From an uncultured Nitrospirales bacterium (GTDB lineage: Bacteria > Nitrospirota > Nitrospiria > Nitrospirales > UBA8639): a stretch of DNA of 64,000 nucleotides. The DNA lies in assembly GCA_951812745.1 (NCBI GenBank), contig OX638327.1, positions 868,001 through 932,000 of the forward strand, given 5' to 3'. Under the pieces are notes generated by a model, which was given only the letters and a program-made list of their open reading frames with translations, was not told where the DNA came from and did no database searches. A program made the translations under genes and the position numbers. Shown in pieces: positions 11,866 through 15,862 of the stretch. Position 1 is the first letter of the stretch, and each line of letters starts with the position of its first letter.

Positions 11866-13893
11866 TCAGGTTTGTGTTGAGGGCCTCCCTTGTATTCGTG
11901 CTCGCGCAAGATCGAGGTAACTCAACGTTCCGACCGGCCGACCATGCTCATCCAGGACCGGAGCCTTTTTCACGCCTTTCAGGTAGAACACTTGCAAGGC
12001 CTCGTGGATTAACTGATTGGACTGTAGTGATATGACTTCCCGGGAGACATTGTCTTTCAGGATTCCAGAAAACTTCTGTTGTTTGGCTGCGGAACGGAAT
12101 AAGTCGGTTTCCGTCAACAGACTCGTCAACTTTCCGTCATCATCCACCACCACGAGTACGTTCTGATGGCTTTCAGTCAACTTCTGGATCGCTTCGGCTA
12201 TTGTCGCCGACTCGAAAATTGATGCCGGTGCCGTGTTCATGAGATCCGTGACCGGCCTGTTAAGAAGTTCTTCCGACCAGGTTGATGGCCTTAAAAACTC
12301 TTCAAGCGGACCTCTGGTTGCCGTGGAACTGAGCAATTGCCGAAGTGACTTAAACAGATCAACGAAAAGTTTGAACTCTTTTGACGCGAAGACGAGCAGC
12401 GTCACTTGCGTTTTCGCCGTCACCGTAACCCGCCGCGCGAAACCATAGAGAAGAGCGCCTTCACCAAAATGGTCTCCGTGAACTAATTCATCTTTCCATA
12501 GAATGTAGCCATCGGCATCGTGTCTTGTCGCTTCCAGAACCCCGTCCTCGACGATGTAAAACCCATTGCTTCGCTCACCCTGATGAAAGACAACATCACC
12601 TGGTTCGATGTGAATTCGGGCCAATTTTTGCGTTTTCCGCAAATCCCAATAATTGAGATCCGGTGGGAAAAAGAGTTCGAACGTCCAATCAATAACCACC
12701 CGAAGCTTACGGTCCAGTCCGGGCAACTTTAACAGATGAATGGTCCGGGTAAGCCACCATGCGAACAGGCCGCTAAAACGAAACCCGAGAATCGAACAGA
12801 CGCCCTTATGGTGGCCGATCGTGGCCATCTGCCCGAGCATCTTGAATCGAAACGGGCGAAGAGAGGCATGGGTGAACGTTGCGGCAATATTATCCGCTGC
12901 CTGTTTGCCCAACGGCGTTGCAAATTGGGCGGTGGGGGGACAGCGATGACCATATCCATCCGGATTAGCCGCTCCATCGCCGATCGCCCAGACATTCTCA
13001 TATCCGTTGACCCTTAACCATTCATCCGTCAGAAGTTTACCTTGCTCATATTCAGCCTCCAGATCCGAGAGCACAGGATTAGGAGCATTCCCAATGGTAC
13101 AGACGACATTTTGAGCTTCGAGACGCGTTCCATCTTTCAGTCGGATATAATCACTACTCACGGACGTCACACGTTGATTGATCAAGACGACCATGCCTCG
13201 CTTTTCCAGGGTTCTTTGTGTAAAACAGCCAAGATCTTCGCCGAGTTCCGGGAGTAAATGAGGGCCGGAATGAACTAAAGTAACTTGCAAGTCCGAGGCA
13301 TCCAGGTTTCGATAAAACCGTCTCGCAGTGAGCAGCAAATCCAGGATTTCACCAGCCGTTTCAACCCCACTATAGCCACCTCCCACAATGACAAAATGGA
13401 GAAGCCTTTTCCGGTGCTGCGGATTTGGCTCCAGACTCGCTTCTTCAAGTCGCCGGACAATGTGCTCGCGAAGAGACAGGGCATCTGCCAACGTTTTCAA
13501 AAAAAGCGCATGCTCCATCATTCCCGGCACCGCTCGAAGGTTTGTACTGGTTCCGAGAGCCAGAACTAAATGATTGGCATCAATAGGTTCTATTTCAGGC
13601 CCATCCGTGACATCAAATTCAACTCGCCGGTTATCGAGATGTATTTTCGAAACCTCTGCCCGCATCAGGGCACAATGGCGAAGGACGATTCGAATGGGGT
13701 TGGTCACATGTCGAGGTTCGATGCTGGCGCCGATGACTTCGGGTAAAAATGGTTGGAAAACGAAATAATTTTCAGCACTGGCCAAAAGAATCCTTTGGGC
13801 AGACGCCTTGCCCCACAATTTTTCTAAACGCCTGGCACAGGTTAGTCCGGCAAAGCCACCCCCAAGAATCACCACGTCCCAATTCTTCTTCAT
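11866..13893 (-). CDS. NDH-2-like FAD/NAD oxidoreductase fused to cNMP-binding and CBS domains
   Basis: From the ATG at 13893 (GGGGA upstream) the product is 675 residues. Residues 1-400 resemble type II NADH dehydrogenase: FAD motif VVILGGGFAGL near 7, NAD motif FVIVGGGYSGVETAG near 165, and NVWAIGDGA near 320. A hydrophobic stretch (FSGLFAWWLTRTIHLL) near 385 fits the membrane-binding end. Residues about 425-520 form a cyclic-nucleotide-binding domain (HIEPGDVVFHQGERSNGFYIV; GDHFGEGALL), and about 545-675 are two CBS domains. It would pass electrons from NAD(P)H to quinone, gated by bound nucleotides. That gating is inference. Confidence 0.8.
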   Translation of the reverse strand: MKKNWDVVILGGGFAGLTCARRLEKLWGKASAQRILLASAENYFVFQPFLPEVIGASIEPRHVTNPIRIVLRHCALMRAEVSKIHLDNRRVEFDVTDGPEIEPIDANHLVLALGTSTNLRAVPGMMEHALFLKTLADALSLREHIVRRLEEASLEPNPQHRKRLLHFVIVGGGYSGVETAGEILDLLLTARRFYRNLDASDLQVTLVHSGPHLLPELGEDLGCFTQRTLEKRGMVVLINQRVTSVSSDYIRLKDGTRLEAQNVVCTIGNAPNPVLSDLEAEYEQGKLLTDEWLRVNGYENVWAIGDGAANPDGYGHRCPPTAQFATPLGKQAADNIAATFTHASLRPFRFKMLGQMATIGHHKGVCSILGFRFSGLFAWWLTRTIHLLKLPGLDRKLRVVIDWTFELFFPPDLNYWDLRKTQKLARIHIEPGDVVFHQGERSNGFYIVEDGVLEATRHDADGYILWKDELVHGDHFGEGALLYGFARRVTVTAKTQVTLLVFASKEFKLFVDLFKSLRQLLSSTATRGPLEEFLRPSTWSEELLNRPVTDLMNTAPASIFESATIAEAIQKLTESHQNVLVVVDDDGKLTSLLTETDLFRSAAKQQKFSGILKDNVSREVISLQSNQLIHEALQVFYLKGVKKAPVLDEHGRPVGTLSYLDLARARIQGRPSTQT

Positions 13894-14678: not shown

Positions 14679-14987
14679 TCACGCTGCATACAGCAGTTCC
14701 TTGGTCTCCTCTACGGATTCCCGGAAGTGCGGATTCTTGATGGCTGAGGCGCTAACCAGATCAACGGGCCGGCCAAACACTTCTTGCAGATCTTCAAGCA
14801 GACCAAAATAGGCGTTTGCATACCCACAGGGAGGAGAAGGCTGAAACTCCACGAGAAAGTCAAGGTCGCTGTCCAGCCTAAAGCGCCGGATGTCAGTTGC
14901 GGAGCCGAATACCTCCAGCCGCAGGACGTGGTAGCGGCGGCACAATTGCCCCAGTTCGGTCGTCCGTTCTGCGATGGCTTGTATCAT
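14679..14987 (-). CDS. MNT-type minimal nucleotidyltransferase (MntA-like)
   Basis: The 102-residue protein has the nucleotidyltransferase core VFGSATDIRRFRLDSDLDFLV: GS followed by the DxD pair. MNT proteins pair with HEPN RNases as toxin-antitoxin systems, the MNT protein modifying the HEPN toxin. Here no HEPN/DUF86 gene is adjacent on either side, so this is an orphan. Its ribosome site aggagaggag lies before the ATG at 14987. A MazEF pair follows on the other strand. Confidence 0.75.
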   Translation of the reverse strand: MIQAIAERTTELGQLCRRYHVLRLEVFGSATDIRRFRLDSDLDFLVEFQPSPPCGYANAYFGLLEDLQEVFGRPVDLVSASAIKNPHFRESVEETKELLYAA

Positions 14988-15151
14988 CAGACTTCTCCTC
15001 TCCTGAGAATCGTTGTTTTATTGTAGGGAGACTCGCGTCCTCCGTCTATATCAAAGCCTCACTTTTGCAAGCTGCGCTCACCAAACCTGGCAAAATGCGT
15101 AAGAGAAGAAACATGTATTCCCCTTGCTGTTATGAAAAATGAGGTCACTTC

Positions 15152-15187
15152 TTGACATTTCACCAAAAAGTAATTACACGTGATTAC
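15152..15187 (+). promoter_or_regulatory. Candidate promoter and operator of the MazEF pair
   Basis: TTGACA at 15152-15157 is followed by the imperfect palindrome gtaattacacgtgattac at 15170-15187, which covers the likely -10 position. Autorepression at such a palindrome is typical for MazE-MazF loci. The -10 itself is weak. Confidence 0.4.
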
Positions 15188-15282
15188 TGCATGGCGTTAC
15201 ACGACGACGCCATATGAGTCATTTTCCAGAAGACAGCAAAACATCCGGTATTTTTCCCTTTAACATTGAGGTATTCGTCGAT

Positions 15283-15543
15283 ATGGGACAGCACAAAGAC
15301 ACCAAACTCATTTCTATTGGAAATTCCCAAGGCATACGCATCTCAAAGCCTCTGTTACAGAAATACAGGTTCATAGATCGCCTTGTATTAGAGGAAACCG
15401 ACCGGGGAATTTTGATTCGCAAGCCCGATGAAGATAATCGGTTTTCCTGGGAAGAGACTTTTAAGGCAATGGCTCAGGAACAAGAAGATTGGCGTGATCT
15501 GGATGTGACGCTTATGGATGGACTGGCAAACGATGACGCCTGA
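15283..15543 (+). CDS. mazE: MazE-like AbrB-fold antitoxin
   Basis: The 86-residue product starts MGQHKDTKLISIGNSQGIRI and continues SKPLLQKYRF, the swapped-hairpin DNA-binding motif of MazE/AbrB antitoxins. The acidic C-terminal tail (EQEDWRDLDVTLMDGLANDD) would wrap the toxin. The frame is open to an earlier ATG at 15214, but only the ATG at 15283 has a GAGG upstream and fits family length. It overlaps the toxin gene by 11 bases. Confidence 0.82.
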   Translation: MGQHKDTKLISIGNSQGIRISKPLLQKYRFIDRLVLEETDRGILIRKPDEDNRFSWEETFKAMAQEQEDWRDLDVTLMDGLANDDA

Positions 15544-15862
15544 ACGATATGAAATCTATTTTGCTGATTTGAACCCGACTTCAGGCCGTGAAATTAACAA
15601 AGTTCGTCCGGTGGTGATTGTGAGTCAAAATGAGATGAATCGTTATTTGGATACCCTTGTGGTCTGCCCTCTCACCTCAAGTCTGCACCCTCAATGGCGA
15701 AGTCGCATTCAGATTATGTGTGCGGGCAAAGATGCGGAGATCGCCGTTGACCAAATCCGGACGATCAGCAAACAACGCCTGAGAGAGAAAATTGACAGGC
15801 TTTCGGACGATGCGGCCGCGCAAGTGAGACGACTGATCACGGAAATGTATGGTGAAGCTTGA
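15533..15862 (+). CDS. mazF: MazF/PemK endoribonuclease toxin
   Basis: The 109-residue product starts MTPERYEIYFADLNPTSGRE, followed by INKVRPVVIVS, the typical MazF beginning with the P-x-x-G-x-E and RP motifs. VVCPLTSSLHP and a later VDQIRTISKQRL complete the fold. It would cut mRNA at short sequence motifs unless bound by the upstream MazE-like protein. The start overlaps the antitoxin end, typical of coupled expression. An ATG five codons earlier (15518) is an alternative start. Confidence 0.85.
   Translation: MTPERYEIYFADLNPTSGREINKVRPVVIVSQNEMNRYLDTLVVCPLTSSLHPQWRSRIQIMCAGKDAEIAVDQIRTISKQRLREKIDRLSDDAAAQVRRLITEMYGEA

Follow-up and report, generated by a model that had tools for sequence, protein, structure and literature searches.

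The window, a 64,000-nucleotide stretch of the genome of an uncultured Nitrospirales bacterium, carries on its minus strand, at 11866..13893, a gene for a protein of 675 residues plus stop in which an NDH-2-type flavoenzyme is followed by a cyclic nucleotide-binding (CNB) domain and two CBS domains. The gene is a single intact frame running from an ATG at 13893 to the stop at 11866-11868; a longer, TTG-started frame is unsupported, because relatives start at the same methionine. In Pfam, the 675-residue protein matches Pyr_redox_2 over residues 6-320 (1.4e-44), cNMP_binding (PF00027) over 427-508 (1.7e-17; 63.6 bits versus a cut-off of 27.5) and two copies of CBS (PF00571; 3.5e-18, best copy at 548-601, over the cut-off). 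NDH2_C, at 353-409, scores 21.3 bits here against its own cut-off of 27.7 bits and lies above the cut-off in relatives. The AlphaFold model of the fusion has a pLDDT of 87.9 and a pTM of 0.70, indicating that the domains are confident and their relative placement less so. An earlier note, made from the letters, had proposed an NDH-2-like dehydrogenase joined in one frame to a cyclic-nucleotide domain and two CBS domains, and had suggested a domain search of the full protein. That search, with the Pyr_redox_2, cNMP_binding and CBS matches over their cut-offs, agrees with the PDB sequence matches, the AlphaFold model, Foldseek and purifying selection, and the fusion is confirmed as real. A short spurious or chimeric frame is ruled out by full-length copies elsewhere (93% to 96% identical) together with low dN/dS. 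Between the fusion gene and tyrS, the window contains a nucleotidyltransferase-domain ORF (MNT-like; 14679-14987) and two genes that look like a toxin-antitoxin pair of the MazEF type (15214-15862). As tyrS is the next gene in a near relative (L145), the block 14679-15862 looks inserted in one genome or lost in the other.

The enzyme part, an NDH-2-type FAD/NAD(P)H:quinone oxidoreductase domain, spans residues 1-411 (12661..13893). The best PDB sequence match of the fusion is a mycobacterial NDH-2 (E 8e-44, residues 6-430), and with the AlphaFold model as query the top 27 Foldseek matches are all NDH-2s. Sulfide:quinone reductase (SQR) and FSP1 were considered as identities and rejected, both ranking below NDH-2s in fold and sequence. 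The protein is thus a two-dinucleotide-fold flavoprotein with NDH-2 as its closest fold, and it has the GxGxxG motif for FAD, the GxGxxGxE motif with the catalytic glutamate, and the GD motif. The FAD motif GGGFAG (residues 11-16, 13846..13863) is near-invariant in alignments. The NAD(P)H motif GGGYSGVE (residues 171-178, 13360..13383; motif described in PMC5299459) is invariant, its E178 being equivalent to the catalytic E172 of Staphylococcus aureus NDH-2, as is G305-D306 (12976..12981), which contacts FAD. A322-Q323 is conserved alongside these and opens the quinone-site motif AQFATP (residues 322-327, 12913..12930). NDH-2 quinone motifs read AQxAxQ, AQxAxR or APxAxQ (PMC5299459); the window protein retains AQ and A and departs from AQxAxQ/AQxAxR at the last position, which is Pro here, Gln in some relatives and Arg in others. 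Two helices at residues 376-408 (12670..12768), assigned by DSSP on the AlphaFold model, would form the NDH2_C-type membrane-contact region. The NDH-2 label rests on homology.

Three substitutions bear on the substrates. Sousa et al. found an adenine-side tryptophan (WxxG) in 99% of 1762 NDH-2s, a set from which proteins with fused N- or C-terminal domains had been excluded (PMC5299459); this residue is common among NDH-2s and is not proven essential. At the equivalent position (Trp261 in S. aureus numbering; PMC5299459) the window protein has C265 (13099..13101). Trp is found there in none of 76 CNB-carrying proteins (one gap) versus 27 of 29 without CNB, and its loss is a clade-level difference, not many independent events. 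H208 (13270..13272) stands in for the acidic residue that confers selection of NADH against NADPH (rule in PMC5877776); His is present in 48 of the 49 CNB-CBS members and also in 11 of 29 unfused proteins. Taken together with the AQFATP quinone motif, these replacements make NADPH no less likely a donor than NADH. The NADH oxidation assumed in the earlier note is not supported by Cys265 and His208, and NADH as donor is, judged from these residues, doubtful. The missing Trp and the Pro ending the quinone motif could also mean that catalysis on NAD(P)H and quinone is altered. The same departures (the Trp position, the histidine and the variable quinone motif) would fit an enzyme outside respiratory NAD(P)H oxidation, with another donor or acceptor, for example an NdbB/NDC1-like reductase of quinone biosynthesis; NDC1 has a role in vitamin K synthesis according to work cited in PMC5877776. 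Given that the catalytic Glu, GD and AQ are retained, that the fold is nearest to respiratory NDH-2s, and that absence from most close relatives would be unlikely for an essential quinone-biosynthesis step, we consider this improbable.

The CNB domain occupies residues 427-512 (12358..12615). Its phosphate-binding cassette FGEGALLYGFAR (residues 476-487, 12433..12468) aligns with E478 and R487 intact and in canonical spacing (FGE-x8-R), and modelling the tail alone returns the CNB domains of HCN4, PKA regulatory subunits and MloK1 as Foldseek matches. The Glu/Arg pair is also intact across the genus of the window organism, and in the sister Verrucomicrobiota group the Arg is mostly lost. The fusion is the only protein of its genome with the CNB Glu/Arg signature; the second CNB protein (L120) is CRP/FNR-like and does not have it. 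Behind the CNB domain lie CBS domain 1 (residues 548-602, 12088..12252) and CBS domain 2 (residues 613-665, 11899..12057). Both contain the [ST]xxD ribose motif, as T594-E-T-D597 (12103-12114) and S658-Y-L-D661 (11911-11922), and the tail model matches the solved CBS pairs MJ0100 (MTA/SAM), AcuB (AMP/ADP) and OpuCA. In the window protein, as in most members of its family, both motifs are intact. Neither ribose Asp is present in Nitrospiraceae copies, those of Melainabacteria retain just the first, and among the variable Verrucomicrobiota copies one (L067) keeps both.

How common the fusion is in Nitrospirota was a question raised by the earlier note. It extends beyond the window genome and is present in 25 of 396 sampled Nitrospirota genomes, with one of these copies (G301) cut short within CBS1; four further genomes have NDH2-CNB without CBS. 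The similarity of the short G301 copy (L016:1456-3222) ends at about residue 574 inside CBS1, after which a divergent tail, as if frameshifted, runs to a stop at 588 aa. Of 14 genomes sampled from the window's genus, 4 carry the fusion and the other 10 give no match at E <= 1e-30, which argues that the enzyme is dispensable. The junction region also served as query in a scan of 84,980 species genomes; the counts from it are lower bounds. Among the matches listed, NDH2-CNB-CBS proteins occur in Verrucomicrobiota, in Melainabacteria/Obscuribacterales and in one MAG each of Acidobacteriota (Bryobacterales) and Proteobacteria, with NDH2-CNB proteins without CBS in still more phyla; the nearest named homologue there belongs to Nitrospira sp. 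SB0662_bin_26 (93% identity). A fusion peculiar to one genome or phylum can therefore be dismissed, as can a Nitrospirota-only distribution: the protein is more widespread and better conserved than the sequence-only reading of the earlier note could know.

In a tree of 105 NDH-2 domains, all 49 NDH2-CNB-CBS proteins fall in one group (SH-aLRT 93), which also takes in four Verrucomicrobiota members classed as NDH2-CNB; the domain order is constant across at least about 5 phyla in this one clade. Support is 90 for the window's lineage as sister to the Verrucomicrobiota copies and 99 for a grouping of the Nitrospiraceae copies with those of Melainabacteria, suggesting that the two Nitrospirales families probably got the gene separately. 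These groupings make simple vertical descent within Nitrospirales the less favoured account. Within the genus, dN/dS per domain is 0.09 to 0.33, and all domains are under purifying selection. For this cyclase-free genus the values are about 0.18 to 0.33 for CNB and CBS versus 0.09 to 0.11 for the enzyme part, and for close pairs in a cyclase-bearing genus 0.11 to 0.19 versus 0.11 to 0.13, both from small samples. A broader proposal is that the CNB-carrying NDH-2s form a cross-phylum subfamily of NADPH-using, nucleotide-gated quinone reductases in which Trp loss and sensor tail go together; we hold this possible, if somewhat on the unlikely side.

More distant relatives place the CNB domain in other company. 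Chains of approximately 1,200 aa (L080:3847-7491, L087, L094 and L106) combine DoxX-like segments, an NDH2-like part, CNB, BLUF and a nucleotide cyclase, the cyclase being recognised by Pfam in L080 only and in the other three by similarity to that part of L080. L092 has the same array without the cyclase, and such chains come from a Nitrosomonas MAG and from methanotrophs of the Methylobacter type. Since neither the catalytic Glu nor GD survives in their NDH2-like part, these BLUF-type fusions are distant and not the same kind of enzyme. They tie the CNB type of the fusion to cyclic nucleotide (cNMP) and cyclase signalling. In two Nitrospirota genomes (L126:1274-5667 and L127:1313-5772), an NDH2-CNB gene is followed in tandem by a second gene encoding a DoxX-like membrane part, an NDH2-like domain without the catalytic Glu, and CNB, possibly an active/inactive pair.

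Stand-alone DoxX genes occur as well: in two relatives from the same family as the window organism, one lies directly downstream of the NDH2-CNB-CBS gene (L040:7314-7814 and L144:6904-7401). This neighbourhood and the DoxX-like segments fused to NDH2-CNB chains in other lineages raise the possibility that the tail is structural, with CNB and CBS holding a dimer or docking a partner such as the DoxX membrane protein and no regulatory ligand involved. Bateman modules often dimerise, and many relatives have no CBS motifs. As the window protein keeps E478, R487 and both CBS aspartates, and no DoxX gene was found near the fusion within the window, we regard a purely structural tail as unlikely.

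Which ligands the host could supply was approached through its gene content, assessed family by family in a single-contig genome of 2.35 Mb that is 100% complete. The NxrA encoded there matches the A chain of a solved nitrite oxidoreductase (7b04, E 0). NuoD is present twice, in one case within a fused frame of NuoCD size and in the other on its own, as has been described for Nitrospirales (PMC12342949). These genes mark the host, taken to be a sponge-type marine bacterium, as a nitrite oxidiser with two complex I copies; reverse electron transport and two complex I copies have been described for Nitrospirales (PMC12342949; PMC10579370). The organism probably belongs to lineage IVb, which is mostly sponge-associated (PMC12342949), and the small genome fits. 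The fusion gene is the only NDH-2-like gene found in it at E <= 1e-30. Class III cyclases (PF00211) were absent from the complete host genome and from all 14 sampled genomes of the genus, and class I cyclases (PF01295) from the host genome. Inspection by eye, as opposed to a domain search, identifies its single CYTH match as a CYTH-CHAD protein with a polyphosphate-kinase-like ORF next to it. No DAC was found in the host genome, making a home-made c-di-AMP ligand unlikely; one GGDEF protein is present, leaving c-di-GMP a conceivable ligand.

These results bear on whether the CNB domain binds cAMP or cGMP in this organism and so gates the enzyme, the cyclic nucleotide coming from an unrecognised cyclase, from a host or from seawater. 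The intact, canonically spaced E478/R487 pair, kept even in a cyclase-lacking genus and found in this genome in the fusion alone (and not in L120), points this way, as do the cyclase domain on related chains and the class III cyclase in 18 of the 25 sampled Nitrospirota carriers of the fusion. However, non-carriers often have cyclases too, so the co-occurrence of fusion and cyclase is uninformative; moreover, a complete genome without class III or class I cyclase, a genus without class III, and the loss of the Arg from most of the sister Verrucomicrobiota group all argue against it. We rate cyclic nucleotide gating in the host as rather unlikely; control by cNMPs is plausible in relatives and doubtful in this organism. 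The earlier note had proposed direct control of quinone reduction by a nucleotide signal or by energy charge. The idea of control by a ligand is well founded; its energy-charge half survives on the intact ribose-Asp motifs of both CBS domains, and its cyclic nucleotide half falters in the host on the missing class III and class I cyclases.

The reading we prefer, with somewhat less than an even chance of being right as a whole, is that the fusion represents a distinct NDH-2 subfamily, probably passing electrons from NADPH to quinone, with the tail as a nucleotide-sensing switch in which the CBS pair leads. The CBS pair is placed first because cNMP control is doubtful in the host while an adenosyl ligand may act at the CBS pair; with no class III or class I cyclase and both CBS ribose Asp kept, such a ligand is the likelier signal there. 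The enzyme would be a flavoprotein of one subunit, seated on the cytoplasmic side of the membrane, that reduces quinone with electrons of NAD(P)H (NADPH more probably than NADH) and pumps no protons. Its C-terminal tail, directly behind the membrane-contact helices, would be a regulatory module. An adenosyl compound (AMP, ADP or ATP, possibly SAM or MTA) is the most likely ligand of the CBS pair, whose resemblance to the AMP/ADP-binding AcuB and the MTA/SAM-binding MJ0100 we count in favour of this explanation. The CNB domain would be the older part of the sensor, probably answering cNMPs in relatives with cyclases; in the host it may transmit the signal, or have a residual or some other ligand. 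Because the tail comes immediately after the membrane-contact helices, its displacement by a ligand could reach the quinone entrance, and binding would then move the tail against that entrance and switch activity. For an organism whose reverse electron transport makes NAD(P)H at the cost of proton motive force, this switch might keep an otherwise wasteful enzyme off until reductant is in excess, and the gating would thereby prevent a futile cycle with reverse electron transport.

If the broader proposal on the CNB-carrying NDH-2s is correct, a second messenger or the energy charge directly sets electron entry into the quinone pool, and autotrophic nitrite oxidisers possess a valve against short-circuited reverse electron transport. 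In a conserved subfamily equipped with CNB and CBS domains, small nucleotides would control quinone reduction directly. Such a subfamily would also open to experiment how chemolithoautotrophs with a reversed complex I escape a futile NAD(P)H cycle, in a single-chain enzyme that can be directly expressed and assayed. NDH-2s bypass proton pumping, and most work has treated them as single enzymes free of sensors, the Ca2+-regulated plant forms excepted. We found no description of the NDH2-CNB-CBS architecture in the open-access papers searched, which is weak evidence of novelty, and the design, present in several phyla, seems not to have been described or tested before.

With Ndi1, the S. aureus and C. 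thermarum NDH-2s and mycobacterial Ndh, its top fold matches, the fusion shares two dinucleotide folds, the catalytic Glu, GD and AQ, together with C-terminal membrane helices that in the fusion are predicted from the model. Unlike them, it has Cys for Trp261, His for the NADH-selecting acid, Pro for Q324 and about 265 extra residues of sensor domains. The Ca2+-regulated plant NDB enzymes are likewise NDH-2s with a built-in regulatory domain, and NDB1 also has no NADH-selecting acid; their EF-hand lies inside the enzyme and reads a Ca2+ signal, whereas the fusion carries a putative nucleotide sensor at its C-terminus (PMC5299459, PMC5877776). AcuB, OpuCA and KpsF/GutQ-type isomerases, also Foldseek matches, have a CBS pair with ribose-Asp motifs as in the fusion and, unlike it, neither an NDH-2 domain nor CNB. 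HCN4, MloK1 and PKA regulatory subunits share the CNB fold and the phosphate-binding Glu/Arg with the fusion, whose own CNB ligand is putative; unlike it, they have no redox domain.
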